From positions 1-53,039 of the forward strand of contig CALWDJ010000015.1 of NCBI GenBank assembly GCA_944376655.1: 53,039 nucleotides of DNA, in the 5' to 3' direction. Positions 11,069 through 25,096 of the stretch are shown here, one piece after another; positions within the stretch are counted from its first letter, which is position 1, and each line of letters opens with the position of its first letter. The translations under genes and the position numbers were made by a program. This DNA is from an uncultured Clostridia bacterium. GTDB lineage: Bacteria; Bacillota; Clostridia; Oscillospirales; Acutalibacteraceae. Below the pieces are notes generated by a model that saw nothing but the letters and a program-made list of their open reading frames with translations, ran no database searches and was not told the DNA's origin.

Positions 11069-12151
11069 TTATTTGCGCGCGAGGTACTTACGCATATCGA
11101 TAGCGCAGGCAACCAGTATTATCATACCTTTGATAACATAAAGAAGGTTCTGGTCAACCGAAAGGAAGTTGAGTCCTACGAATATTATCTGAAGAAGGAA
11201 TACGCCTATTACTATTCCGCTGATTTTACCGGTACCGCCTACGAAAGACACGCCGCCGATAACGCAGGCCGCGATGGCGTCGGATTCGTAGTTAAGACCT
11301 GTATTGGCTGAGCAGGAAGCGATACGCGCGCCCTCTATAAAACCGGTTATACCGTACATGGCGCCGGCTATTACGAAAACTATAACTATTGTCCAGAAAA
11401 CGTTTACGCCTGAAACATTTGCGGCTTCCTCGTTGGAGCCCACCGCAAACATATTCTTGCCGAACTTGGTCTTATTCCATACAAGCCACATAAGCGCTGT
11501 CAATATGATCGCGTAAAGCACATATTTCGGAACGGCTACTCCGTCTATTCGGAACAGAGTGCCTTTTACGAAATTCGTATACGATTCGTCAAGTCCCGAA
11601 AGTGTCTGACCGTTGTTGCTGCCTATCATAAGGAACATAAGAATAAGTCCGTACACGATAAGCTGTGTCGAAAGGGTAACTATGAACGGATGGAGCTTGA
11701 ACTTCGCGACGAAAAATCCGTTTACGAGTCCGACCGCCGCACCGACGGCGATAACTATAAGAAGCACTATCCAGAGCGGCATAACCTCAAGCTCCGGAAA
11801 AATCTTATTCGCGTAGTTTGTCATCTGTAAAAGCGCCGCCGAAATACAGGCGGTAAGTCCTACGCATCGGCCTGCCGAAATATCCGTTCCGGTAAGTACT
11901 ATCGCTCCGCCTATTCCGAGCGCTATCGGCAGCTTTGCGGCAGTAAGCGAAATTATATTTACGATTGAAGATGTGGACAAAAACGCCGGAACCTGAATCG
12001 CTATATATATTATGGCAATCACGATGATAATATACATCGCGTTATTGAAAAGCAGGTCCACAATAGCTCTGCGCTTATCCGCTCCGGATTTTGCCTTGAA
12101 CTCCTCAAGTCTGGCGGAAAGGCGTCCTTTTCTTTTTATTGCAGCTGACAT
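11069..12151 (-). CDS. mglC: Galactose/methyl-galactoside ABC transporter permease
   Basis: A 360-residue BPD_transp_2-type permease with about eight to ten membrane segments. The blocks GIGGAIVLTGTDISAGR and VIGGVSFVGGTGKISG are typical of MglC/RbsC sugar permeases. It would form the homodimeric channel for the two-cassette ATPase encoded just upstream, moving glucose or galactose delivered by MglB. AGGGGG before the ATG at 12151 supports the start. The gap to the ATPase gene is 21 bp. Confidence 0.92.
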   Translation of the reverse strand: MSAAIKRKGRLSARLEEFKAKSGADKRRAIVDLLFNNAMYIIIVIAIIYIAIQVPAFLSTSSIVNIISLTAAKLPIALGIGGAIVLTGTDISAGRCVGLTACISAALLQMTNYANKIFPELEVMPLWIVLLIVIAVGAAVGLVNGFFVAKFKLHPFIVTLSTQLIVYGLILMFLMIGSNNGQTLSGLDESYTNFVKGTLFRIDGVAVPKYVLYAIILTALMWLVWNKTKFGKNMFAVGSNEEAANVSGVNVFWTIVIVFVIAGAMYGITGFIEGARIASCSANTGLNYESDAIAACVIGGVSFVGGTGKISGIVIGVFLLQIIFVGLNFLSVDQNLLYVIKGMIILVACAIDMRKYLARK

Positions 12152-12172
12152 ATGTATATTCCCCCTGTACTT

Positions 12173-13717
12173 TTAAGCGTATTTGGCGGCAAGCGCCATT
12201 ATTTCTTCCTGAGTAGTATCAGCGGCGTTGACCTCGCCCGCCAGTCTGCCTCCGGACATTACAAGTATCCTGTCGCACACGCCGAGCAGTTCAGGCATTT
12301 CCGATGAAACCATTATTACCGTCTTGCCTTTCGCCGCAAGATCTATTATAAGCTCGTATATCTCATACTTGGCGCCTACGTCTATACCTCTTGTAGGCTC
12401 GTCAAGCAGAAGCACGGTCGGCTCTGTCAGAAGCCAGCGGCCTAATATTACCTTCTGCTGGTTTCCGCCTGACAGCGAGCGTATTTTTGTCTCCTGTGAC
12501 GGTGTTTTGATACGCATTGAGTCGATGCACCAATCAGTGCTCTTTTTCAGCTTCTTTTTGCTGAGCAGCGGTCCCGACCTGCATTTTCCGAGGCTTGATA
12601 TAGTCGCGTTTTCACGTATGTTCAGAATACTGAAGATACCAGTGGCGCGCCTTTCCTCGGTAAGCAGCGCAAATCCGTTTTTAATCGAGTCCCTTGAGTT
12701 CCGGTTACGTATCGGTTTGCCGTCAAGTGTCAGCTTACCGCTTTTTCTCGTTGCTACTCCGAATATGTTTTCAAGCAGTTCAGTTCTTCCCGAACCGTCA
12801 AGTCCCGCGACTCCGAGAATTTCGCCCTTGCGCGCCGAAAAACTGACATCGCTCAGCTTTGAATACATCGCCGAAAGATCCTTTACGTCAAGCAGTACAT
12901 CACCTATCTCGTTGGTTTTTGGAGGATAAAGGTTCGTAAGCTCTCTTCCGACCATCAGCTTTATTATTTCGTCGGTGGTAAGACCCTTCGCGTCTTTTGT
13001 GGCTATCCATTTACCGTCGCGCATTATGGTGACTTCATCGGATATACGAAGTATCTCCGCCATTTTATGGGAAATATATATTATTCCGCAGCCCTGGTCA
13101 CGCAGCATATTTATGATTCTGAAAAGGTGCTCAACCTCTTCCTCTGTAAGCGACGATGTAGGCTCGTCGAAAACTATTACCTTTGAATTATATGAAACGG
13201 CTTTCGCAATCTCAACCATCTGCCGCTGGGATACCGGCATACGGCTCATAACCGTCTTGGGATCAACATTTATTTCAAGTTTATCGAAAACTTCCTTTGT
13301 CGCCTTGTACATCTTTTTCTCACTGGTAATCGGCACTCCTTTGGCGACCTTCGGGAAACGCCCCAGCCACATATTGTCCATTACATTGCGCTTTAAGGCC
13401 TGATTCAGTTCCTGATGAACCATCGCCACTCCGTTTTCAAGCGCTTCCTTGGAGTTTTTGAAATTGATTTCTTTTCCCTCAAGATATATTTTCCCGCCGT
13501 CCTTGCTGTAAACTCCGAAAAGACATTTCATAAGCGTGGATTTTCCGGCGCCATTCTCACCCATAAGGGCGTGAACCGTTCCCGCTTTTACCGTGAGGTT
13601 GACCTTGTCGAGCGCTTTTACGCCCGGAAAGGCTTTTTCGATATTTTCCATTCGCAGAAGAACCGGTTTTTCATTCTCTTGCCGGACATTATCAATATTT
13701 TTTTCTTTCTCACTCAT
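12173..13717 (-). CDS. mglA: Sugar ABC transporter ATP-binding protein (MglA type)
   Basis: A 514-residue protein with two fused ATPase cassettes, as in MglA/RbsA. The first cassette has Walker A GENGAGKS at 53-60, signature [10 protein letters not shown] and Walker [12 protein letters not shown]. The second has a degenerate Walker A (GLDGSGRTE), signature LSGGNQQKV and [15 protein letters not shown] degenerate second Walker A is normal in this family. It powers uptake through the permease encoded next. It is separated from mglB by a stable hairpin (13759-13789). Confidence 0.95.
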
Positions 13718-13758
13718 AAGATACCGTCCCCTGTCCGTTATTGCTTGTTTCCGATAGG

Positions 13759-13789
13759 AGGGCAGCCCTCCTTGCGGTGCGGCTGCCCT
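13759..13789 (-). promoter_or_regulatory. Intercistronic hairpin between mglB and mglA
   Basis: A 9-bp perfect stem AGGGCAGCC/GGCTGCCCT with no T run after it on the minus strand, so it is unlikely to be a full terminator. Hairpins at this place in binding-protein operons commonly protect the upstream mRNA and allow more binding protein than ATPase. Confidence 0.55.
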
Positions 13790-13804
13790 GCCTTTGTGTA
13801 AAAA

Positions 13805-14860
13805 TTATTCGCCTGTGTATACGCTGTAAGGAATATTAACTCTCCAAGTGCCCACGATATTGTCTTCCTCTATGCCGTCAAAGGTTTCTTTTCCGTCAAG
13901 GAAGTTCTGGCATATTGTAGTTATAGCGGATGCCATACCGTTAGCGTCCTGCTTGATGCTTCCTACCATTTTGCCTTCCTTAATCATTGTCTGTGCAGCG
14001 TCGGTAACGTCAACACCGAATACCGGTATTGTCTTGCCTGTGCCGTTATTGTATCCGGCACCCTGAAGTGCGGATATAGCGCCCAGCGCCATATCGTCAT
14101 TGTTGGCTATAACAAGCTCAACCATATTCTTGTTGGCTTCGCTGTACTGGCTGAGAATTGTATTCATATAATCGGTAGCAGCCGATGATGACCAGTTACC
14201 TGACTGGTCAACAAGGTATTTGTTGGAGTTCTGCGCGTCATAGAATACAAGCTCGGGCTTGCCGGCTTCGGTAAGCACCTTGTTCGCGTCCTCAACACCG
14301 TACTGGGTACGGGCGATAGCCTCCGCGTTGCCCTCCTGACCCTTGAACATAACATAGCTTATCTTGCCGTCGCCGTTAAGGTCAACCTTGTCATAATTCT
14401 CAACGAGATATTTGCCTATCATTTCACCCTGCATATGACCTGCCATCTCATAGTCGGTTCCTACGAAAACGCACTTGTCATAGCTGCTTACAACGGACTC
14501 GTCAACCGAGCGGTTGAAGAATATTACCGGAACATCCTTTTCTTTCGCAAGGTTTACAATATTCTGCGCCGCGTCATTTGAGCCGGTGTCAACTACGTTT
14601 ACTATAAGCAGTCTCGAGCCCTTGGCGAGAGCAGTGGTAACCTGCTCGGTCTGGGTTGTCTGGTTGCCGTTGCCGTCGTAATTGTTGTAGTTGAGTCCGG
14701 CGTCTTCAAAAATCTTATCCATCGCGGAACGGACGCTTGAAATATATGTATCACCGAAATTGTAATAGAAAACAGATATTTCTCCGTCCGAATTGCCTCC
14801 GCAGGCTGTAAGTCCGAAGACGAACGCGATTGCCAGAATGGTTGCGAGTAGCTTTTTCAT
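13805..14860 (-). CDS. mglB: Galactose/glucose-binding lipoprotein (MglB type)
   Basis: A 351-residue periplasmic-binding-protein-fold lipoprotein. The signal peptide ends in a lipobox LTAC with Cys at about residue 20. A calcium-binding loop DLNGDGKIS followed by YVMFKGQEGNAEAIART matches the MglB class rather than ribose- or xylose-binding proteins. It should capture glucose or galactose outside the cell and deliver it to MglC/MglA. It is the first gene of the operon, with AAGGAGG before the ATG. A TATAAT lies at 14909-14914 but lacks a good -35 box, which suggests activator-dependent control. Confidence 0.93.
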   Translation of the reverse strand: MKKLLATILAIAFVFGLTACGGNSDGEISVFYYNFGDTYISSVRSAMDKIFEDAGLNYNNYDGNGNQTTQTEQVTTALAKGSRLLIVNVVDTGSNDAAQNIVNLAKEKDVPVIFFNRSVDESVVSSYDKCVFVGTDYEMAGHMQGEMIGKYLVENYDKVDLNGDGKISYVMFKGQEGNAEAIARTQYGVEDANKVLTEAGKPELVFYDAQNSNKYLVDQSGNWSSSAATDYMNTILSQYSEANKNMVELVIANNDDMALGAISALQGAGYNNGTGKTIPVFGVDVTDAAQTMIKEGKMVGSIKQDANGMASAITTICQNFLDGKETFDGIEEDNIVGTWRVNIPYSVYTGE

Positions 14861-15944: not shown

Positions 15945-15995
15945 ATTTATCGGTTATATTGTTATAAGCACAATTAAAAATATTAGGTGATTCAT

Positions 15996-17483
15996 ATGGA
16001 AAACAAAGATTTTATAAACCTTATTCCTTCCCGTAAAAATCCCTCTCCTGATTACTACTGCACATGGCAGACACAGCTTTACGCCACAAGCGGAGGAACG
16101 CCCGCCGAACAGCGCAGAATAATAAATGAGCATTATATTTTCAATACGGATTTTCCCTGCGGCTGGGCATATTTCTACGAAAAGGCTCGTGATGACCTTT
16201 ATTTTGTTATGGACGACAGCTGGGACGTTCCCGAAACCGATTACCAAAAATACTACGGCTGTCTTTTTCCTGATTCCGGAAAGTTTCCCGAAGCGACCCG
16301 CGGAAACGACAGCACCGAGGCTCTCGCCAGTCTCACAGAGCGAATAAAATCCATCGGCTGGAAAGGTCTCGGCGGCTGGGTATGCGCACAGGAGTCCGAA
16401 ATTTTTAAAACCGGAAGCACGGAAGATTACTGGATTTCAAGACTCAAAGCCGCGCAAAAGGCCGGTTTTTCCTACTGGAAGGTTGACTGGGGAAAAAAAG
16501 CAAGCGACGCTGAATTCAGAAAAGCTCTGTCAAGGCTTGCCCGTATTTACGCTCCTGAACTCACACTGGAGAACGCAATGCTCGAAGAGGTAATTCCTTA
16601 TTCAGACGCCTTCCGTACATATGATGTGCCGGCGCTTATGTCGATACCTATGACAATGGAAAAAATACAGTTTTACGCCGGAGCCGTAAGAGAGCGCGGC
16701 GATTTCAAATCGCTGCTCAACTGTGAGGACGAGGCGTATATAGCCGCGGCGGGCGGCTTCACAATGGGAATAATGCGTCATCCGTTTACCGGAGCGTTTC
16801 CGGACGGCAGACCCGACCGCTCTTTTCCGGAAATACACCGCAATATTAAATCAAAGCTCACCGAAGTCACAAGAGCGGTCCGCTGGCACAGAATAGCGCC
16901 CGCCTACGCTCTTGACGGAAACGAATTTCTGTTCGCCGGAAGCGAGCTTCAGGACAGCTGGAAGTTTGAAAACATCAAAGACGAAATAGAACAGTGGTGG
17001 CTTTCGGCAGGAACGGTAAAGGACTTTATTTCAGACGGCGTGCTTACAAAATCCGCTGTTTCGGGTATTGCAAGGCGCTGCTCACTTCCGTCGGTAATTC
17101 CCGACAGAAACGGAGATATCCCGTTTACCGTGTCATCGCTCAATCCAGGCGGAGCTTATTCCATCGTCACCGCCGGAAGGACAAGAGCGAGAGAATATTT
17201 TACTCCCCTTTGCGATATAACGGCAGACGCGGAAGCCAGCACGGTTTTCGGAGTATTCGGATATTACGGTTCGCTTACCCTGCTTTCTTCCGGCATAAAA
17301 AAGGGCATGAGAGTGCTGGCGCAGGATCTTGCCGACGACCGCGCGGCGGATATTACCGGACTTGTAAGTATAAAGAACGGAAGCCTTACCGTGCCGGGCA
17401 GACTGATTTCAGAAATCGGCAGGACCGCGCAGCCCGCGGAAGACACCTCCGAACCCGGAATAGTAATAACTGTAAAGCCCTGA
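15996..17483 (+). CDS. Putative glycoside hydrolase, clan GH-D-like (alpha-galactosidase-related)
   Basis: A 495-residue cytoplasmic protein with no signal peptide. Two motifs resemble GH27/GH36/GH31-type TIM barrels: MDDSWD at about 72-77 (compare DDGW) and YWKVDWG at about 160-166, in which D164 would be the nucleophile (compare KYDF/KVDW). A later NCEDEAY...GGFTMGIMRHP block could supply the acid/base but is not a known signature. A beta-sandwich-like C-terminus follows. ATG at 15996 with AGGTGA five bases before it is preferred over the in-frame GTG at 15987. It is monocistronic, convergent with an AraC regulator, and near mglBAC, so it may release galactose-like sugars. The family assignment is by motif only. 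Confidence 0.6.
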   Translation: MENKDFINLIPSRKNPSPDYYCTWQTQLYATSGGTPAEQRRIINEHYIFNTDFPCGWAYFYEKARDDLYFVMDDSWDVPETDYQKYYGCLFPDSGKFPEATRGNDSTEALASLTERIKSIGWKGLGGWVCAQESEIFKTGSTEDYWISRLKAAQKAGFSYWKVDWGKKASDAEFRKALSRLARIYAPELTLENAMLEEVIPYSDAFRTYDVPALMSIPMTMEKIQFYAGAVRERGDFKSLLNCEDEAYIAAAGGFTMGIMRHPFTGAFPDGRPDRSFPEIHRNIKSKLTEVTRAVRWHRIAPAYALDGNEFLFAGSELQDSWKFENIKDEIEQWWLSAGTVKDFISDGVLTKSAVSGIARRCSLPSVIPDRNGDIPFTVSSLNPGGAYSIVTAGRTRAREYFTPLCDITADAEASTVFGVFGYYGSLTLLSSGIKKGMRVLAQDLADDRAADITGLVSIKNGSLTVPGRLISEIGRTAQPAEDTSEPGIVITVKP

Positions 17484-17527: not shown

Positions 17528-18337
17528 TTATCTGTTTTTATATATATTTCTGAATTCCGTAGGAGAAATTCCCGTCTCCTGCCTGAATTCGCGGCTGAAA
17601 TTACTGTGGTCGCTGAAACCGCAGGACGCTACAATACGGCTTACCGGCATATCGGACGAAGCCAGCAGCTTTTTCGCCGCCGTAATCCTGCATAGCCGCA
17701 GATAGTTCATAACCGACGTTCCGGTTATTTTCCTGAAGGAATGCGCGAGATAAGACGGGCTCAGGCTGTATTGTGCCGCAATACCCTCAAGGGTATAGTC
17801 CGCTGAATAATTGCAGAAAAAAACTTTTTTGATTTCCCTGACGATTTCCGAAAGTCCTTTCTCATATTCGGAGAAAAGCTCCGGACGGTACCTGTAAAGC
17901 AGCGCGAGCAGGCGGTACAAAAGCAATTCAAGCACATATCCGCTTAATTTTCCGCCCTCGGAATACTCCTTTTCCATATTGTTCAGAACAGCCGTATATT
18001 CCACGGCGCAGGGCGATACATCAATTACACTGCGAAAACTCGCCGGTCTGTTCACAAGCACCGACAGCAGCATTTCGTCTGTTTCCTTAAGCGAGACAGG
18101 CGACGGTGAAATACGCAGGATATACCGTTCGTAATTTTCGGTTTCCGCAGTTATCGAATGTCGTTCAAAGCGGTTTGTTATAACAAGCGAACCGGCGCAC
18201 GCCTTAAAGCGTTCCCCGTTTACCGTAACGCATGCCGCCCCGCTTTTTACAAACAGAAGCTGATTGCAGTCGTGAAAGTGCGTGCTTGTAGCCGCGCTGT
18301 CGCTCGAATGTTTTACCGACAAAACCAAATCTGACAT
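17528..18337 (-). CDS. AraC-family transcriptional regulator, divergent from the redox operon
   Basis: A 269-residue regulator with an N-terminal cupin sensor domain (HFHDCNQLLFV at about 20-30, then GSLVITNRFERH) and a C-terminal pair of AraC helix-turn-helices (LEGIAAQYSLSPSYLAHSFRK, then RIVASCGFSDHSNFSREFRQ). The frame opens to 18454, but GGGAGGCGG directly before the ATG at 18337, and a promoter at 18356-18384, show that 18337 is the start. It is divergent from the five-gene oxidoreductase operon beginning at 18481 and is its likely activator, sensing a sugar or aromatic substrate. The operon promoter lacks a good -35 box, as expected for AraC activation. Confidence 0.88.
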   Translation of the reverse strand: MSDLVLSVKHSSDSAATSTHFHDCNQLLFVKSGAACVTVNGERFKACAGSLVITNRFERHSITAETENYERYILRISPSPVSLKETDEMLLSVLVNRPASFRSVIDVSPCAVEYTAVLNNMEKEYSEGGKLSGYVLELLLYRLLALLYRYRPELFSEYEKGLSEIVREIKKVFFCNYSADYTLEGIAAQYSLSPSYLAHSFRKITGTSVMNYLRLCRITAAKKLLASSDMPVSRIVASCGFSDHSNFSREFRQETGISPTEFRNIYKNR

Positions 18338-18355
18338 TTTTCCGCCTCCCTTGAT

Positions 18356-18384
18356 ATTATAATGCCCATAGCGCAAAAAAGCAA
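18356..18384 (-). promoter_or_regulatory. Sigma-A promoter of the araC regulator
   Basis: Minus strand: TTGCTT (18384-18379), 17-bp spacer, TATAAT (18361-18356). It leaves a very short leader before the ATG at 18337. Confidence 0.65.
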
Positions 18385-18441
18385 TATTTACATAATTAAG
18401 AGCATTTATAATATAGAAAAAACTTATCGGCAGCTTTACAA

Positions 18442-18447
18442 TATAAT
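18442..18447 (+). promoter_or_regulatory. Probable -10 element of the oxidoreductase operon
   Basis: TATAAT at 18442-18447 with no recognisable -35 box at 17 bases. This suggests activator-dependent initiation by the divergent AraC protein, with binding sites expected in 18385-18425. Confidence 0.45.
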
Positions 18448-18480
18448 AAAACAACTGTACAGAAAACAGGACGGTGTGAA

Positions 18481-19803
18481 ATGAGCAAGGTATACACAGA
18501 CAAAAACAGCTTTCTGAATGAAAATTCCGCTCTGAATACAGGGCTTCCCTACACTGACGACATTTCGGTACTCGGGGAGGAACTGACTGTCGGCGGCACA
18601 GTATTTAAAAACAGGCTTGCCTGTCAGGCTATGGAAGGGTGCGACGGTACAGCCGACGGACGTCCCGACGGGCTTACAAGGCGCCGTTACGGGCGTTTTG
18701 CGAAGGGCGGCGCCGGAACCATATGGTTTGAAGCCACCGCGGTTATGAAAGAGGGACGGGCAAACCCGCGCCAGCTTTACATAAATGAGAACAGCCTTGA
18801 TTCCTTTAAGCGGCAGGTAGAGGAAATTAAAAAAACCGGAATGAGGGAAAACGGCTTTGAGCCGGTTGTAATAATGCAGGCTACCCATTCGGGCAGGTAC
18901 AGCAGGCCCGACGGGACTCCGAAACCGCTTATCGCCTACAACAACCCGATATTTGAAAAGGAGTCCCCGATACCCGAAAGCGCGGTAGTGACCGATGAAT
19001 ACCTCGACCGTGTGGGTGAGGCGCTTATCGGCGGCGCGCGGCTTGCCGAAAAAGCCGGTTTTGACGGTGTTGATATAAAGTGCTGTCACAGATACCTTAA
19101 TTCCGAGCTGCTTTCGGCTTACACGAGAAAGGGCAGATACGGCGGCAGTCTTGAGAACCGCACACGGCTTTTACGGGAAAGCATAAAAGGTGCAAAGGAG
19201 ATATGCTCAGACAAATTCATAGTATCCTCACGCCTTAACGTATATGACGGCTTCCCCTATCCCTACGGCTTCGGCGTAGCTCCTGACGGCGGTACGGAAT
19301 TCGCCCCGAGCGAACCGGCATGGCTTATAGGTGAGCTTTATAAGGCAGGGGTAAGAATACTCAACATAACAATGGGCAATCCCTATTTCAATCCTCACGT
19401 GAACCGCCCGTTCGCGGCGGGTCCCTACACGGCTCCCGAAGAGCCTCTTAAGGGTGTGGCGAGGGTGCTTAACGGCACGGCTGAGCTTAAAAAGGCTGTT
19501 CCGGATATGAAGCTCATCTGCTCCGCCGTTACCTATCTCGGCACGGCGGCGCCGAATGTCACGGCGGCGTTTATAAAAAACGGCGGGTTTGATATAGCGG
19601 GCTTCGGCAGAACCGCCTTCGCTTACCCTGATTTTGCTAACGACATACTTAAAAAAGGCGGTATGCAAGCCTCGAAAATATGTATCGCATGCTCAAAATG
19701 CACGGAAATTATGCGCTCCGGCGGAACGCCCGGCTGCGTTATACGGGATTCGGAAACGTATATGCCCTTATATAAAAAATACTGCGGAGGTGCTGTAAAA
19801 TGA
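18481..19803 (+). CDS. Old Yellow Enzyme-type NADH:flavin oxidoreductase with C-terminal Cys cluster
   Basis: A 440-residue FMN-binding TIM-barrel oxidoreductase of the OYE/2,4-dienoyl-CoA reductase family, which usually reduces alpha,beta-unsaturated carbonyls. Recognisable are RLACQAMEGCDG, THSGRYS, the CHRYLNSELLS block and YGGSLENRTRLL. Near the C-terminus C401, C404, C407 and C419 form a CX2CX2CX11C cluster like the 4Fe-4S site of dienoyl-CoA reductases (usually CX2CX3CX11C). The FAD/NADH half that normally follows (total ~640 residues) is absent, so another flavoprotein may supply electrons, perhaps the one encoded two genes downstream. First gene of the operon; its stop overlaps the next start (ATGA). 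Confidence 0.82.
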   Translation: MSKVYTDKNSFLNENSALNTGLPYTDDISVLGEELTVGGTVFKNRLACQAMEGCDGTADGRPDGLTRRRYGRFAKGGAGTIWFEATAVMKEGRANPRQLYINENSLDSFKRQVEEIKKTGMRENGFEPVVIMQATHSGRYSRPDGTPKPLIAYNNPIFEKESPIPESAVVTDEYLDRVGEALIGGARLAEKAGFDGVDIKCCHRYLNSELLSAYTRKGRYGGSLENRTRLLRESIKGAKEICSDKFIVSSRLNVYDGFPYPYGFGVAPDGGTEFAPSEPAWLIGELYKAGVRILNITMGNPYFNPHVNRPFAAGPYTAPEEPLKGVARVLNGTAELKKAVPDMKLICSAVTYLGTAAPNVTAAFIKNGGFDIAGFGRTAFAYPDFANDILKKGGMQASKICIACSKCTEIMRSGGTPGCVIRDSETYMPLYKKYCGGAVK

Positions 19804-20540
19804 ATAAATCAGCGATAGTTACGGGAGTTGCCGGAGGAATAGGCTACGCCACAGCCGCGAAGCTGCTTGACAACGGTTTTTCGGTCACGGGTATGGACAT
19901 CGCTCCGGAAACGGGCAGGGAATTAAAAGGGGATTTCACCTATTTCAGCGGTGATTTAAGCCACGCCGACGACCGGAAAGCGCTTATAGACGCCGCTATT
20001 GCCCACTGCGGCAGGATAGACGCGCTTGTAAATGTCGCGGGAGTCGCTCCGAAGGTAAGAGCCGACCTGCTCCAGATGACCGAGGAAAGCTATGATTTTG
20101 TTATGAACATAAACACCAAGGGCACGCTTTTCCTTACTCAGGCGGCGGCAAAGGAAATGATTAAAAACGACGGAGAAAATAAAGGCTGTATAGTTAATAT
20201 CTCATCAATGTCCGCTTACACAAGCTCGGTGAGCCGCGGCGAATACTGCATTTCAAAGGCGGGAGTAAGCATGATAACCGCCCTGTTTGCCGACAGACTG
20301 GCGGAATACGGAATTGCCGTAAACGAGATACGTCCCGGTATAATCGCTACCGGAATGACCGAAACCGTAAAGCAGAAATACGACAACCTGATTTTCAACG
20401 AGGGCATACTTCCGATAAAGCGCTGGGGACAGCCTGACGATATCGCTTCCGCGGTGCTGGCGCTTTGCAGCGGCTCTCTGCCCTATGTAACGGGACAGTC
20501 GATAGATGTTGACGGCGGCTTTCACATACGCCGTCTGTAA
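19800..20540 (+). CDS. Short-chain dehydrogenase/reductase (SDR)
   Basis: A 246-residue classical SDR with cofactor motif TGVAGGIG at 8-15, NVAG at 78-81 and catalytic S136, Y149 and K153 (YCISK). The closest well-known relatives by sequence style are FabG and sugar or steroid dehydrogenases. It should oxidise or reduce a hydroxyl/keto pair with NAD(P)H. It overlaps the upstream gene by four bases and has GGAGGTG before its ATG, so the two are translationally coupled. The substrate is unknown and must be read with the neighbours. Confidence 0.9.
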   Translation: MNKSAIVTGVAGGIGYATAAKLLDNGFSVTGMDIAPETGRELKGDFTYFSGDLSHADDRKALIDAAIAHCGRIDALVNVAGVAPKVRADLLQMTEESYDFVMNINTKGTLFLTQAAAKEMIKNDGENKGCIVNISSMSAYTSSVSRGEYCISKAGVSMITALFADRLAEYGIAVNEIRPGIIATGMTETVKQKYDNLIFNEGILPIKRWGQPDDIASAVLALCSGSLPYVTGQSIDVDGGFHIRRL

Positions 20541-20549
20541 GGTGGACAT

Positions 20550-22460
20550 ATGGAATATAAAAAATATTTTTATGAGGCGGTAGTGGTAGGCAGCGGAGCG
20601 GCAGGCTACAACGCAATATGCCGCTTAAACGGCGAAGGCGGCAAAAAAGCGGCGCTTGTGACCGAGGGACGTCTCTGCGGAACCTCGCGCAATACCGGCA
20701 GCGACAAGCAGACCTACTACAAGTTAGGTCTCGGCGGCGAATTTCCGGACAGTGTTGCAAAAATGGCTCACGACCTTTTCTCCTGCGGCTCGGTGGACGG
20801 CGACAACGCTCTCTGCGAGGCGGCGCTTTCCGCGCGCTGTTTTATGAATCTGTGCGAGTTAGGCGTTGAGTTTCCGGTAAACCGTTACGGTGAGTACATA
20901 GGCTACAAAACCGACCACGACCCGTATGAAAGAGCCACCTCTGCGGGGCCGCTGACCTCAAAATATATGACCGAGGCGCTTGAAAGGCAGGCGCTTAAAA
21001 GCGGCGCCGAAATATTTGACAATATGCTGGCGGTGGAAATCCTCAAATATAACGGAAGCGTATGCGGACTGCTCTGTCTTGAAAAGGAATCCGGAGACTT
21101 CGCTGTATTTTTCTGCACCGATATTATACTCGCCACCGGAGGCCCCGCCGGAATATACGCCGACAGCGTTTATCCCCACGGTCATACCGGCTCTACCGGA
21201 CTTGCACTCGAGGCGGGCGCGGCGCTCCAGAATATGACCGAATGGCAGTACGGTTTAGCGTCGCTCAACCCGCGCTGGAATGTTTCGGGAACATATATGC
21301 AGGTGCTTCCTGCCATAATATCAGTGGACGCGGATGGCACCGAGCGGGAATTTACCGGCGATTATTACGGGGACATTTATACCGCCCTTTCCGCCGAGTT
21401 TTTCAAAGGCTATCAGTGGCCGTTTGACAACCGCAGGGCGGCGGACGGCTCGTCGGTAATCGACCTGCTCGTATACAGGGAAACGGTGCTTTCGGGCAGA
21501 AGGGTTTATCTTGATTACACAAAAAATCCGTTCGGACTTGAAAACATTGAATTTGACAGGCTCTCTGTTGAGGCTTACACTTATCTTGAGAAAGCCGGCG
21601 CCTGCTTCGGCACTCCTTATGAAAGGCTTATGAAAATGAACGCCCCCGCCGTGGAGCTATACAGAAGCAAAGGCGTTGACCTTTCGCGCGAGCGGCTTGA
21701 AATAGCCCTCTGCGCGCAGCACAACAACGGCGGCATAGCGGTCGATATGTGGTGGCAGACCTGTGTACCCGGGCTTTTCGCCGCCGGCGAATGCGCCGGA
21801 ACCCACGGGATTTCAAGGCCCGGCGGCAGCGCACTTAACGCCGGTCAGGCAGGGTCGCTCAGAGCCGCGCAGTATATATGCGCGCATAATCGTACTCTGC
21901 CGGACAGAAATACACTTGAAGAAACAGCGGAAAAGGCGCTTGAAAAACATTTAAAGTACCGCGAAAAGACGCTTGAAAACACCGGGGATTCCGACACGCT
22001 GATAAAAAAAGCCGCCCGCCGCATGAGCGACAGGGGCGGGGCAATCCGCACAAAAGCCGATATGGACGCGGCGCTTCGCGGGATACTTGATGAGCTTGCC
22101 GCTCTTGAAGCTACGGCAGGGGTAAAGGACTTAAAAAATCTGTATAAATATTACAAGCTGAAAGACATTCTGACCGTTCAGGCGGCGGTGCTTACGGCAA
22201 TGTCCGATTTCGCGGAAAAAGTGCCGTTCACGCGCGGCTCGGCGCTTTACTTCTCGCCCGACGGCGTCAAGGCCCGGCAGCTTCCCGAATGCTTCCGCTT
22301 TGTGCCGGACAACGGCGGCTCCGCCGGAAAAATTCAGGAGGTTTCGCTTAAGGACGGAAAGTTCGCCACGCTCTGGCGGGACGTCCGCCCCATTCCCGAA
22401 AACAGAGACTTCTTTGAGAATGTCTGGCGGCAGTACCGTGAAAACAAAAATATATACTGA
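20550..22460 (+). CDS. FAD-dependent fumarate reductase/succinate dehydrogenase-like flavoprotein
   Basis: A 636-residue soluble flavoprotein with an N-terminal FAD-binding motif (VVVGSGAAG, GSGAAG at 14-19), the second FAD segment LATGGPAGIYADS, the capping-domain HTGSTGLALEAGA, and a final PGLFAAGECAG...RPGGSALN block seen in FrdA/SdhA/NadB relatives. A helical C-terminus resembles the SdhA tail. No signal peptide, heme domain or adjacent iron-sulfur subunit is present, so it is probably not a respiratory fumarate reductase. Such stand-alone proteins reduce diverse unsaturated organic compounds in gut anaerobes. It is third in the operon, 9 bp after the SDR, with AAGGTGG before its ATG. Confidence 0.85.
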   Translation: MEYKKYFYEAVVVGSGAAGYNAICRLNGEGGKKAALVTEGRLCGTSRNTGSDKQTYYKLGLGGEFPDSVAKMAHDLFSCGSVDGDNALCEAALSARCFMNLCELGVEFPVNRYGEYIGYKTDHDPYERATSAGPLTSKYMTEALERQALKSGAEIFDNMLAVEILKYNGSVCGLLCLEKESGDFAVFFCTDIILATGGPAGIYADSVYPHGHTGSTGLALEAGAALQNMTEWQYGLASLNPRWNVSGTYMQVLPAIISVDADGTEREFTGDYYGDIYTALSAEFFKGYQWPFDNRRAADGSSVIDLLVYRETVLSGRRVYLDYTKNPFGLENIEFDRLSVEAYTYLEKAGACFGTPYERLMKMNAPAVELYRSKGVDLSRERLEIALCAQHNNGGIAVDMWWQTCVPGLFAAGECAGTHGISRPGGSALNAGQAGSLRAAQYICAHNRTLPDRNTLEETAEKALEKHLKYREKTLENTGDSDTLIKKAARRMSDRGGAIRTKADMDAALRGILDELAALEATAGVKDLKNLYKYYKLKDILTVQAAVLTAMSDFAEKVPFTRGSALYFSPDGVKARQLPECFRFVPDNGGSAGKIQEVSLKDGKFATLWRDVRPIPENRDFFENVWRQYRENKNIY

Positions 22461-22471
22461 GGGTGAAATTT

Positions 22472-23215
22472 ATGTTCAGGACGGGACTTGTATCGGTATC
22501 TTTCAGGGATAAAACTCCCCCGGAAATAATAAAAGCGGCGGCAGGCGCGGGACTTTCCTGCATCGAATGGGGAAGCGACGTTCACGCGCCCTTTTCCGAC
22601 ACGAAAAAGCTCGCGGAAATAAAAAAAGAGTGCGGGGCAAACGGTATTGCCTGCTGCTCCTACGGGACATATTACAGAATAGGTCAGAATACCGACAGTG
22701 AGCTTATGCCCTACATTGAGGCGGCAAAAATCCTCGGGACAGACGTTTTAAGGCTCTGGTGCGGCACAAAAGGCGCCGCAGAATACACTCAAGCCGAGAA
22801 AAAAGAGCTGTATGAGCAGTGCGTAAGGCTTGCTGAGACAGCCGAAAAGGAAAACGTAAAGCTCTGCCTTGAATGTCACAACAACACGCTGACAGATACA
22901 GCCGACGAGACCGTAAAGCTGATGAAGACGGTAAATTCTCCTTATTTTAAAATGTACTGGCAGCCGAACCAGTACAAAACCGAAAAAGAAAATCTTGATT
23001 ACGCGAAAAAGATTTCCGGCATCACAGAAATAATTCACGCATTCAACTGGGAAGGAGACAGCAAATATCCGCTGGGCAGTGCAAAGGAAATCTGGCGTAA
23101 ATATCTCGGCGTGTTCGGCAACGGTACGGTGCTGCTCGAATTTATGCCGGACGGGAAAATCGAAAGTCTCGCCGGAGAAGCGGCGGCGCTTAAGAAAATT
23201 ACGGAGGTATTCTGA
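22472..23215 (+). CDS. Sugar phosphate isomerase/epimerase-like TIM-barrel protein
   Basis: A 247-residue xylose-isomerase-like (AP endonuclease 2 superfamily) barrel. ATG at 22472 with GAGGGTGA before it is preferred over the in-frame GTG at 22463. Visible landmarks are LSCIEWGSDVHAP, LRLWCGTKGA, the metal-ligand-type LCLECHNNT, and HAFNW with a final LLEFMPDG Glu. The usual D.GH metal motif is replaced by YWQPNQ, a form I associate with a subgroup of this family but whose effect on metal binding is unclear. Members isomerise or epimerise sugars, inososes or keto acids, and some take part in C-glycoside cleavage. Fourth in the redox operon. Confidence 0.82.
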   Translation: MFRTGLVSVSFRDKTPPEIIKAAAGAGLSCIEWGSDVHAPFSDTKKLAEIKKECGANGIACCSYGTYYRIGQNTDSELMPYIEAAKILGTDVLRLWCGTKGAAEYTQAEKKELYEQCVRLAETAEKENVKLCLECHNNTLTDTADETVKLMKTVNSPYFKMYWQPNQYKTEKENLDYAKKISGITEIIHAFNWEGDSKYPLGSAKEIWRKYLGVFGNGTVLLEFMPDGKIESLAGEAAALKKITEVF

Positions 23216-24217
23216 TGAAATCGGTATTTTTGTGTGAAAACGCTGACGCGGTAAAAAACGTTTATTCGGAAGACACGGTTTCTCTGCTCAAAAAAACCGC
23301 TGGAATCGATAAAAAAGTATACTCAAAAAACGATATTCTCTCCTCGCCGGACAGCTTCGGAAATACGGAATACATATTTTCCACATGGGGTATGTCACAG
23401 CTTTCAGCCGAGGAAATAAAGAAATTTCTGCCCTCGCTTAAATGCGTTTTTTACGCGGCGGGCACGGTACAGTATTTCGCGAGACCGTTTCTTGACTGCG
23501 GCGTAAAGGTTTTCAGCGCCTGGGCGGCAAACGCCGTACCCGTAGCCGAATACACCGCGGCGCAGATAATCCTCGCTAATAAAGGCTTTTTCAAGGCGCA
23601 GCAGAAAATGAGCGCCGGAAAAGTAAAAGAGGCAAAGGAAATCTTTTCTCATTACAAAGGCAATTACGGAGCGAAAGTCGGAATAATAGGCGCCGGAATG
23701 ATAGGTAAGCTTGTAATAAAGGCGCTTAAAGCCCACCGGCTCAGTGTTCTTGTTTTCGACCCGTTCCTGCCTGACAGTGCGGCCAAAGTGCTCGGAGTTA
23801 AAAAATGCGGACTTGAAGAGCTGTTTTCCTCCTGTTCAGTAGTATCCAACCACCTTGCCAACAACGAGCAGACAAAGGGCATGCTGACAGGAAGCCTTTT
23901 TTTCCTCAATGCCGCCATACAGCGTATTCCTCAATACCGGCAGAGGAGCGCAGGTGGTTGAAAGCGAGCTTGCCGACGTGCTTGAGGCGCATCCCGACCT
24001 TACGGCGATACTTGATGTTACAGAGCCGGAGCCGCCACTGCCCGACAGCAGGTTTTACACCCTTGAAAACTGTATCCTCACTCCGCATATTGCCGGAAGC
24101 AGCGGAAATGAGGTACACCGCATGGCGGAATATATGGCGGAGGAATTTTCACTTTACATAAGCGGCGCAAAAACCAAGTATGAGGTAACTCATAAAATGC
24201 TTGAAACAATGGCTTAA
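23215..24217 (+). pseudogene. D-isomer-specific 2-hydroxyacid dehydrogenase, split by a +1 frameshift
   Basis: Two overlapping frames (23215-23961 and 23909-24217) together make a complete 2-hydroxyacid dehydrogenase of about 333 residues, the normal family length. The first part has the NAD motif VGIIGAGMIG. The second has the catalytic set Arg (NTGRG), Glu (DVTEPEPP) and His (TPHIAG). The break is in a run of seven T at 23897-23903; removing one T restores LFSSMPPYSVFLNTGRG. As it stands the protein would lose its active site. This may be a sequencing or assembly error, slippage, or real inactivation. The start overlaps the previous stop (TGATG) with GGAGG before it. Last gene of the operon. 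Confidence 0.85.
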
Positions 24218-24236: not shown

Positions 24237-24284
24237 AAAAAATACGCGTCCCGAAAGCATTTGCTCTCAGGACGCGTATTTTTT
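24237..24284. terminator. Bidirectional terminator between the redox operon and DUF134-nifX
   Basis: A 15-bp perfect stem AAAAAATACGCGTCC/GGACGCGTATTTTTT between two convergent genes. The A and T runs serve as U tracts in both directions. Confidence 0.93.
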
Positions 24285-24295
24285 AAGCTGTCGCT

Positions 24296-25048
24296 CTATT
24301 TGCCGCATCCGTGCGCTCCGCAGGAATGCTCTTCCCCGTGACCGCATTCGTGATGATTGCAGTTTACTTCCGAGCTGTATTTAAGCTCGCCCGACAAAAG
24401 CGATTCGACCGCTTTATCGGTATCGCCGCTCACTCCGGCGTAAACCCTTATACCCGCCTTAGCGAGTGCCGCCATCGCGCCGGCGCCTATACCGCCGCAG
24501 ATAAGCGCGTCCGCGTTTTTGCTTTTTAAGAAATCCGCGAGCGCTCCGTGACCGTGACCGTTTGTATCAACAATCACGCTGTTTACAATACGGTTCTCCT
24601 CCACATCGTAAATTTTGAACTGTTCCGTATGTCCGAAGTGACCGAACACCATACCGTCTTCATATGTTACCGCTATTTTCATAACCGTTTTTCCTTCTTT
24701 CTTCGCTTTATATGCCTGCTTTTTTACGCAGCTTTTTTCTCCGCAGATGCTGTTGACGCCGTCGCAGAGACTGACATCTCCTCCCGAAATTTTAAGAGGA
24801 AGCCCCTCTGTAAGCGCTTCGGCAATCTTTTTTCTCGCCGAATCGTAAATTTTCTGCACGGTCGTTCTGCCGACACGCAGATACCCGCAGCATTGTTCCT
24901 GTGATAGACCCTCCCTGTCAATCAGCCGGATTGTCTCAAACTCGTCGTATGACAGTATTACCTGCTTATCCTCCCTGCCATTCAGCGGAGAGAACTCTTT
25001 TATACAGGGAAACCGGCATATCCTTCTGCATTTGACCGGCCGCGCCAT
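24296..25048 (-). CDS. DUF134 (HTH) - NifX/NifB-type iron-molybdenum-cofactor-domain fusion with His/Cys-rich tail
   Basis: A 250-residue protein. The first ~95 residues are a DUF134 sigma-70-region-4-like DNA-binding domain (MARPVKCRRI start; SQEQCCGYLRVGRTTVQKIY as the helix-turn-helix). About 120-225 is a dinitrogenase iron-molybdenum cofactor (NifX-like) domain (KIAVTYEDGMVFGHFGHTEQF, then ICGGIGAGA). The C-terminal tail (NCNHHECGHGEEHSCGAHGCGK) is rich in His and Cys and should bind metal. The frame opens to 25096, but the promoter at 25068-25096 and GGAGG place the start at the ATG at 25048. Divergent from a ZIP transporter, it may be a metal- or Fe-S-responsive regulator. Confidence 0.82.
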   Translation of the reverse strand: MARPVKCRRICRFPCIKEFSPLNGREDKQVILSYDEFETIRLIDREGLSQEQCCGYLRVGRTTVQKIYDSARKKIAEALTEGLPLKISGGDVSLCDGVNSICGEKSCVKKQAYKAKKEGKTVMKIAVTYEDGMVFGHFGHTEQFKIYDVEENRIVNSVIVDTNGHGHGALADFLKSKNADALICGGIGAGAMAALAKAGIRVYAGVSGDTDKAVESLLSGELKYSSEVNCNHHECGHGEEHSCGAHGCGK

Positions 25049-25067
25049 CTTCATCGCCTCCGGATTT

Positions 25068-25096
25068 ATTTTAGCACCGTTTATGACATATGTCAA
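25068..25096 (-). promoter_or_regulatory. Sigma-A promoter of DUF134-nifX gene with overlapping palindrome
   Basis: Minus strand: TTGACA (25096-25091), 17-bp spacer, TAAAAT (25073-25068). A perfect 12-bp palindrome TGACATATGTCA (25084-25095) overlaps the -35 box and lies 10 bases from the divergent promoter, so it is a candidate operator. Confidence 0.65.

Follow-up and report, generated by a model that had tools for sequence, protein, structure and literature searches.

An AraC-linked operon of gut Clostridia that pairs an OYE with a fumarate-reductase-like flavoprotein and its possible role in uronic acid breakdown

Introduction

In the gut, uronic acids make up a large share of both plant and host glycans, and a few textbook routes are generally taken to account for how they enter metabolism. 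The described systems closest to the locus presented here are the lyase-KduI/KduD-KdgK-Eda routes and the levoglucosan/3-keto-glycoside pathways; at the level of single enzymes, they are the class III and the iron-sulfur (Fe-S) members of the Old Yellow Enzyme (OYE) family and the flavoprotein subunits SdhA and FrdA. A four-Cys motif after the barrel is a feature of the Fe-S OYE family, and SdhA-type subunits pass electrons to an Fe-S subunit. In this study, an operon was analysed which encodes an OYE and an SdhA/FrdA-like flavoprotein and which is located on contig CALWDJ010000015.1 of an uncultured Clostridia bacterium of the Acutalibacteraceae (assembly GCA_944376655.1); the whole stretch of 53,039 nucleotides is referred to as the window. 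The operon consists of five genes, encoding the OYE, a short-chain dehydrogenase/reductase (SDR), the flavoprotein, a xylose-isomerase-like TIM barrel and a D-2-hydroxyacid dehydrogenase, and runs divergently from a gene for an AraC-family regulator.

A preliminary description, made from the sequence alone, had named these families and the divergent AraC gene, had emphasized the tight packing of the genes and had proposed a pathway without a described match. Profile searches recovered the OYE, the SDR, the flavoprotein, the barrel and the AraC protein in the same places and families, and among the matches listed, the OYE, the flavoprotein, the barrel and the dehydrogenase pass no NCBIfam cut-off, in line with this proposal.

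A co-inherited redox core

At the level of gene neighbourhoods and sequence distances, the OYE, the SDR and the SdhA/FrdA-type flavoprotein have been shown to form a co-inherited core. An alignment of the OYE was scanned over one genome each of 84,980 species, and the best 80 of 591 loci were retained (the named loci). In the 57 of these with at least 6 kb downstream, all retrieved via the OYE alone, an SDR gene follows in the same orientation at a distance of up to 4.5 kb in 55 and a flavoprotein gene likewise in 55; both are found somewhere in the locus in 53. The gene set is thus conserved together in near relatives, and the refuting condition set by the preliminary description, that the genes are together in no other genome, does not apply. 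The distance matrices of 48 loci in which all three genes are intact agree closely (OYE-flavoprotein r = 0.922, SDR-flavoprotein r = 0.767, OYE-SDR r = 0.724), and permutations did not exceed 0.30. The same comparison of neighbourhoods has shown that the core is joined in different genomes by the barrel and dehydrogenase genes, by lyase genes resembling polysaccharide lyase family 33 (PL33), or by genes for a 2-keto-3-deoxygluconate (KDG)-kinase-like protein and a 2-keto-3-deoxy-6-phosphogluconate (KDPG) aldolase. The assumption that barrel and dehydrogenase are always present in relatives was discarded; they are found in 36 and 35 of the 80 loci, respectively.

The record titles of the OYE relatives name a ruminant in 35 of 80 cases and a cultured species in two. 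Butyricicoccus pullicaecorum (L090) carries the full OYE-SDR-flavoprotein trio with a divergent AraC gene, and Caldicoprobacter oshimai has the OYE and the flavoprotein, with a zinc-type alcohol dehydrogenase replacing the SDR. When the phylum was sampled evenly, 29 of 398 genomes, including the genome of the window, had the OYE at E <= 1e-60. Among 40 relatives, again including this genome, a threshold of E <= 1e-3 is passed by 15. Eight of these reach E <= 1e-100, and the other matches have around 30% identity and lie mostly in longer frames. A second, wider set comprises 34 regions ranging from the same genus to the same phylum, with two regions duplicating named loci (L164/L061 and L166/L079). 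When the loci of both sets with 4 kb on either side of the OYE were pooled (76 loci, these duplicates included), a flavoprotein of either of two types was located within 4 kb of the OYE in 61.

The dehydrogenase belongs to the family given by the preliminary description, but it is not encoded by a single open frame: two overlapping open reading frames share one Pfam profile, with a frameshift near a T-run at ~23900. In the nearest relative, L056, the gene is intact and encodes 333 amino acids. Compared with L056, the differences at codon positions 1/2/3 amount to 12/9/51 in the first fragment and 2/5/26 in the second, and since both fragments retain this bias, the break is either recent or an assembly error. 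Silent codon changes outnumber other changes in the OYE (115/40), SDR (60/16), flavoprotein (139/65) and barrel (47/29) genes and in the first dehydrogenase fragment (45/19). Together with the third-position bias of the second fragment, this indicates that the gene set has been under selection.

A distinct OYE and its probable flavoprotein partner

The OYE belongs to the PF00724 superfamily, and its AlphaFold model (pLDDT 91.6) consists of alternating strands and helices. The preliminary description had called it truncated, with a Cys cluster and no FAD/NADH half, which holds true: the chain of 440 amino acids carries a four-Cys motif (CxxCxxC-x11-C) and ends soon after it. This motif after the barrel, a predicted cluster site, is common to the window OYE and the type of 2,4-dienoyl-CoA reductase (DCR), BaiCD, BilR and trimethylamine dehydrogenase, whereas the C-terminal FAD/NAD(P)H half of the DCR/BaiCD/BilR/2-enoate reductase type is absent. 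The window OYE stays below the NCBIfam cut-offs of these families (60-73 bits vs 425-825), with 66 bits for BilR (cut-off 750) and 60 bits for BaiCD (cut-off 825).

A profile alignment with four solved class III sequences (among them YqjM 1z41, 3gr7 and 3kru, the last known as TOYE) revealed the shared PF00724 barrel, with 106-110 bits. The second active-site His and the Tyr of class III are retained in the window OYE, whereas the first His is replaced by Lys in all four alignments and the flavin-proximal Cys by Glu in three of them; the 3gr7 alignment shifts at this position. The class III hallmark, the flavin Cys together with the YqjM His pair, is thus not found in the window OYE, which also differs from class III by its C-terminal four-Cys motif. 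In 105 OYEs, including that of the window (>350 amino acids and >200 bits), E52, D55, K200, Y205 and the four Cys are invariant, and H203 is present in 104, giving the active-site variant E52/K200/H203/Y205. As far as known, this subclass of around 440 amino acids with a Glu and Lys active site would be new to flavin enzymology. One of its members (45% identical) is found in L169 (3837-10584), where the neighbouring genes look CooC-like and carbon monoxide dehydrogenase-like by sequence and a 350-amino-acid gene without a Pfam match lies on the other side; this context may indicate a link to carbon-monoxide or methyl metabolism.

The structure model of the flavoprotein (pLDDT 92.1) is alike over the whole chain to SdhA/FrdA, L-aspartate oxidase and the alpha subunit of adenosine 5'-phosphosulfate reductase in Foldseek comparisons, with SdhA/FrdA being nearest; the lowest E is 4.1e-32, and TMq of the 20 top matches ranges from 0.66 to 0.72. 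Sequence identity in these 20 matches is only 17-19%, and the best 25 of 31 NCBIfam matches are all under cut-off. A set of 68 flavoproteins, that of the window included (>560 amino acids and >300 bits), was compiled in addition to 12 of a second type. All 68 keep the Arg of the GxxRPGG motif, as do SdhA/FrdA; the position of the SdhA catalytic Arg is occupied by Arg in only 36 of them, including the window protein, and plain fumarate reduction is therefore not expected for the family. No gene for an Fe-S or membrane subunit was recognised beside the flavoprotein gene, and the OYE holds the sole cluster motif recognised in the operon. The OYE and the flavoprotein are probably partners. Two distant OYE relatives (L035/L143 and L045/L151) have long natural frames of 918 and 885 amino acids, and these fused loci have no FrdA-like gene within 4 kb. 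By sequence, the extension in L035 looks like a GltD-like FAD/NAD(P)H half. A strict mutual exclusion of fused OYE and FrdA-like gene was rejected, and the pattern is only suggestive, because 13 of the 15 loci that lack a flavoprotein are unfused.

Among the best 25 of 220 NCBIfam matches of the SDR, PRK12745 alone passes its cut-off, and the score for KduD remains below the required value (158 bits vs 339). The nearest solved sequence of the barrel is AsbF (E 1.1e-8). With respect to the Glu-Asp-His-Glu metal site of AP_endonuc_2 enzymes, E137, H192 and E226 of the barrel are conserved at >=85% of 36 sequences, and the place of the metal-binding Asp falls in a conserved YWQPN motif; these presumed ligand places were read from the AsbF alignment and from general features of the family.

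Uronate-linked genes around the homologous loci

The preliminary description had suggested a sugar acid as one possible type of substrate, and this guess gained support from the genes found in homologous loci. A KDPG aldolase scoring over its cut-off and a kinase are encoded within the operon in L064, L073 and L112. The kinase scores 580-622 bits against the kinase half of NF041633, a family of KHG/KDPG aldolase-sugar kinase fusions, and lies below the KDG-kinase cut-offs; it is labelled KDG-kinase-like here. L146, L152, L158 and L163, the last from the same genus, likewise have the aldolase/kinase pair on the same strand, and L162 has it nearby. L163 has a single line of genes up to the contig end, encoding the OYE, the SDR, the flavoprotein, an unassigned 562-amino-acid protein, the barrel, the dehydrogenase, the aldolase and the first part of the kinase. 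The 562-amino-acid protein is part of a family of 551-566 amino acids whose genes stand beside that of the flavoprotein or the barrel (L163:6109-7797, L069:13793-15448, L074:17775-19475), near the place that the PL33-like lyase has in other loci; the L163 and L069 members have no Pfam match.

A PL33-like (heparinase-like) lyase is encoded in 16 of the 80 loci, in 15 of them within the operon, and its gene lies between the OYE and SDR genes in L058, L062 and L081. Scored with the profile of these proteins, solved PL33 lyases reach 416-436 bits; the matches to PL35 lyases and to alginate lyases are weaker. According to a study on PL33, a highly conserved +1 subsite specific for glucuronic acid (GlcA) is found in this family (PMC11848413). 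A link to ulvan dehydratases, considered on the assumption that the oligosaccharide dehydratase P29_PDnc is heparinase-like, was dropped, because another study predicts such dehydratases together with PL37 (PMC8511951).

Genes for uronate conversion are found beside the operon in L166 (= L079), which encodes tagaturonate reductase and uronate isomerase and, below cut-off, proteins resembling galactarate/altronate dehydratase and beta-glucuronidase. In L157, the OYE gene stands in line with genes for tagaturonate reductase, glucuronate isomerase, a dehydratase-like protein and one further gene. Overall, at least one member of this uronate/KDG gene set is present in 24 of the 80 named loci and in 8 of the 34 regions of the second set, in comparison to 1 of 36 controls (Fisher p 0.0005 and 0.012), with p-values that are optimistic because the loci are related. 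The controls comprise 27 random regions and nine regions of the own genome placed by hand; the single match, L201, has UxaA- and UxaB-like genes.

In the own genome, genes for a kinase (70% identical) and an aldolase (69%) are adjacent on contig C16, and glucuronate isomerase, mannonate dehydratase and mannonate oxidoreductase genes stand in line on contig C4. This C4 unit (L190:8371-15599) continues with four genes identified by their sequence appearance, of which two encode barrel-like proteins and two Gfo/Idh-like ones, and looks like a second uronate unit resembling an oxidation-elimination glycoside module. Among five genomes with the trio, UxaC was found in all and GH88/105 in one.

Other sugar-related genes are found around the loci as well. 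Rhamnose-kinase-like genes are present in 2/80 and 4/34 loci, with a rhamnose isomerase gene in L112; Gfo/Idh-like genes in 6/80 and 10/34, some together with a barrel gene; and glycosidase genes of the GH2, GH3, GH30, GH53-like, GH9 and rhamnosidase types. Together with the URO-D genes described below, they suggest a mixed glycan context, perhaps the side chains of arabinogalactan or xylan.

Proposed function

The pairing of the flavin enzymes with sugar-acid genes makes a role in uronic acid breakdown probable. In the reading that is tentatively favoured here, and which is considered somewhat short of probable in its full form, the operon would be under AraC control and serve catabolism in gut Clostridia. 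It would convert a glucuronate-type saccharide into a hexuronate or KDG, and the two flavin enzymes would act on a C=C bond that arises during cleavage. Judging from the gene neighbours, from which both substrate and steps were inferred, the saccharide would most likely be of the glucuronate type and often lyase-made and unsaturated. A lyase or a transporter would deliver a glucuronyl or Delta4,5-glucuronyl sugar, which the NAD-linked dehydrogenase and the barrel protein may oxidise, isomerise or eliminate. The OYE would then hydrogenate or shift the C=C bond, being fed via its Fe-S cluster by the flavoprotein as the probable partner, and the product would enter as a hexuronate or as KDG, leading via KDPG to pyruvate and glyceraldehyde-3-phosphate.

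A bolder version, which appears rather unlikely, regards the OYE and the FrdA-like protein as two subunits of one new flavoenzyme, in which the OYE would be the Fe-S partner of an SdhA-type FAD subunit and electrons would pass along FAD, [4Fe-4S] and FMN between two substrate sites. This enzyme would perform a redox-based, non-hydrolytic cleavage of glucuronides. Such a cleavage would involve oxidation, elimination of the aglycone, reduction of C=C and C=O bonds and ring opening to KDG; for Delta4,5-glucuronides, the intermediates would be a 3-keto-Delta4,5-glucuronide and, in the elimination of the aglycone, comenate or another 4-pyranone-carboxylate. On paper, the balance of the scheme fits, with +2 H as the net change relative to the unsaturated uronate.

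Several observations weigh against a uronate pathway. To our knowledge, the known uronate routes need neither an OYE nor a FrdA-like enzyme, and the OYE/flavoprotein step is therefore not explained by them. The window operon itself contains no lyase, KDG or uronate gene, in 56 of the 80 named loci the available flank contains no member of the set, and many PL33 loci (L085-L098) resemble one lineage. Aldolase or kinase genes considered alone are not significant in the named loci (6/80 vs 0/36 controls, p = 0.17) and weakly significant in the second set (5/34 regions, p = 0.023); the controls are few, nine of them were placed by hand, and the loci are related. A search for PL33 in the own genome returned no match, an absence which is uninformative since the search had no positive control, and among the trio genomes, G005 is 57% complete and G022 87%. 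The core also thins in the second set, where the SDR is found in 10/34 regions, the flavoprotein in 19/34, the barrel in 3/34 and the dehydrogenase in 6/34. No flavoprotein gene lies within 4 kb in 15 of the 76 pooled loci, with that of L152 being slightly further away, and L157, one of the two places with a uronate isomerase, is among these 15. Finally, the URO-D, rhamnose and Gfo/Idh genes could reflect another substrate.

Such a substrate might be an O-methylated sugar acid, chiefly the 4-O-methylglucuronate of xylan and arabinogalactan, with the trio helping to remove or bypass the 4-methoxy group that blocks the normal dehydration to KDG. The methoxy carbon is the carbon that is deoxygenated in KDG, and URO-D genes (MtaA/CmuA-like) are found in L112, L135, L138, L139, L140, L148, L153 and L159, and in none of the 36 controls; L112, L140 and L148 were checked against Pfam, and the URO-D assignment held in all three. 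However, URO-D proteins serve other roles too, and among the 80 named loci only two have such a gene, which lies far from the OYE in L135; this explanation is considered unlikely. The preliminary description had instead drawn attention to the stepwise reduction of unsaturated plant or steroid compounds as in equol formation. Here, the OYE would reduce a C=C bond and the SDR a ketone, the FrdA-like enzyme would remove a hydroxyl group, and the sugar genes would serve the freed sugar. The three enzyme classes are those of the equol enzymes; there are the distant matches to BilR and BaiCD mentioned above, and transporters that look LIV-type ABC or TRAP-like by sequence are encoded in some loci. 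The homologous loci, however, hold KDPG aldolase, PL33-like lyase and uronate genes, the FAD/NADH half that BilR and BaiCD possess is absent from the OYE of the window, and the scan of the neighbours, although not aimed at such genes, showed no recognisable gene of an aromatic pathway. Since the scanned neighbourhoods are carbohydrate ones and only the trio of enzyme classes resembles the equol enzymes, the polyphenol or steroid reading is not supported and is considered quite unlikely.

The inositol-like substrate named by the preliminary description also found little evidence. In this case, the operon would break down a cyclitol or a quinate-type carbocycle, with the barrel acting as an IolE/AsbF-like dehydratase and the OYE and flavoprotein acting on cyclohexenones, which are usual OYE substrates. 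AsbF is the closest solved sequence of the barrel, and an AroE-like gene (by sequence look) is present in L146, with a likeness in L141. Nevertheless, YWQPN is conserved where, by our own reading, the usual metal Asp would be expected, KDG genes stand outside the usual inositol route, and the neighbours that were scanned, although not specifically for this purpose, showed no recognisable set of inositol genes; a carbocycle is considered improbable. The same applies to an electron sink or detoxification system, in which the trio would reduce reactive enones or dicarbonyls derived from uronic acids and would serve the fermentation balance rather than carbon entry. The changing partners around the redox core and the many enones that OYEs accept agree with such a role, but the divergent AraC gene with one exact operator in the genome and the lyase or KDG genes within some operons look catabolic.

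If the favoured uronate reading is true, many uncultured gut Clostridia and the cultured B. pullicaecorum would carry an unrecognised uronate route, built on a conserved flavoenzyme core with links to lyases and KDG genes. The possible pairing of an SdhA-type protein with an OYE would, as far as known, have no precedent in flavin enzymology, and the operons provide a defined test set for genes that bear only generic flavoenzyme names. Among the papers listed by full-text searches of open PubMed Central articles, none describes such a pathway or ties an OYE to uronate or PL33 gene clusters; most subscription papers and all bioRxiv preprints lie outside this scope.

Operon organization and regulation

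The features of the region are summarized in Table 1. As proposed by the preliminary description, the genes are tightly packed: OYE and SDR overlap by 4 bp, gaps of 9 bp and 2 bp follow the SDR and the flavoprotein, and barrel and dehydrogenase overlap by 1 bp. The hairpin behind the last gene is likely the operon terminator, for which use on the plus strand is assumed.

Table 1. Genes and regulatory features of the operon region (positions refer to the window)
Feature	Position	Strand	Basis
Neighbouring 498-amino-acid protein	15987..17483	+	glycosidase-like by eye only
AraC-family regulator	17528..18337	-	HTH_18 86 bits, AraC_binding 26.3 bits
Operon promoter region	18331..18480	+	sigma-70-like matches 18331-18360, 18387-18414; consensus scan only
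Putative AraC operator GCAATATTTACATAA	18381..18395	+	15-mer recurring in AraC-OYE gaps
OYE-family enzyme, 440 amino acids	18481..19803	+	PF00724 68.7 bits, threshold 27
SDR, PRK12745-type	19800..20540	+	NF009386 286 bits, cut-off 250
FrdA/SdhA-like FAD flavoprotein	20550..22460	+	FAD_binding_2 85.5 bits
Xylose-isomerase-like TIM barrel (AP_endonuc_2), GTG start	22463..23215	+	PF01261 64 bits
D-2-hydroxyacid dehydrogenase, first fragment	23215..23961	+	2-Hacid_dh_C profile positions 3-112
D-2-hydroxyacid dehydrogenase, second fragment, different frame	23909..24217	+	2-Hacid_dh_C profile positions 117-178
Hairpin, 20-bp stem	24237..24284	.	between operon end and convergent gene 24296-25096; scan reports minus strand

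A divergent AraC gene (>100 bits, <=400 bp) precedes the OYE gene in 20 named loci. In the 21 AraC-OYE gaps of these loci and the window, the 15-mer GCAAGATTTACATAA is present in 16 with <=2 mismatches, and a 9-mer out of it is found in 12, compared to at most 4 across 30 shuffles. A weaker second copy of the motif (<=5 mismatches) follows exactly 21 bp further in 8 gaps; in the gap of the window, no second copy passed at this position. The window copy is the sole exact match to the operator pattern in the own genome, and one single-mismatch match lies within a coding frame. A wider regulon was also considered and rejected: with <=2 mismatches, the own genome has 22 matches, vs 18 with the reversed pattern, and because of these numbers and the coding position of the single-mismatch match, no further AraC targets are claimed.

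The upstream gene for the 498-amino-acid protein is separated from the AraC gene by a further hairpin and lies close to a sugar ABC transporter (11069-14860). Its product has no match in Pfam, NCBIfam or the PDB, and among 114 OYE regions, this neighbour is labelled in L056 only. The gene at 24296-25096, which is convergent with the operon, encodes a protein that by sequence appearance is DUF134-like, has a metal-cofactor domain resembling NifX/NifB and carries a tail rich in His and Cys.

Comparison with known pathways

Two described types of pathway come close to the proposed function. The lyase-KduI/KduD-KdgK-Eda routes have no place for an OYE or a flavoprotein. PL33-like lyase, KDG-kinase-like and KDPG-aldolase genes are also found in the homologous loci, and the window SDR has a distant, below-cut-off likeness to KduD. 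For the levoglucosan/3-keto-glycoside pathways, an excerpt of the source names neither an OYE nor a flavoprotein (PMC7676230). The window operon lacks a Gfo/Idh gene; in other genomes, Gfo/Idh-like proteins join the OYE loci, as they do these pathways of oxidation, elimination, hydration and reduction.

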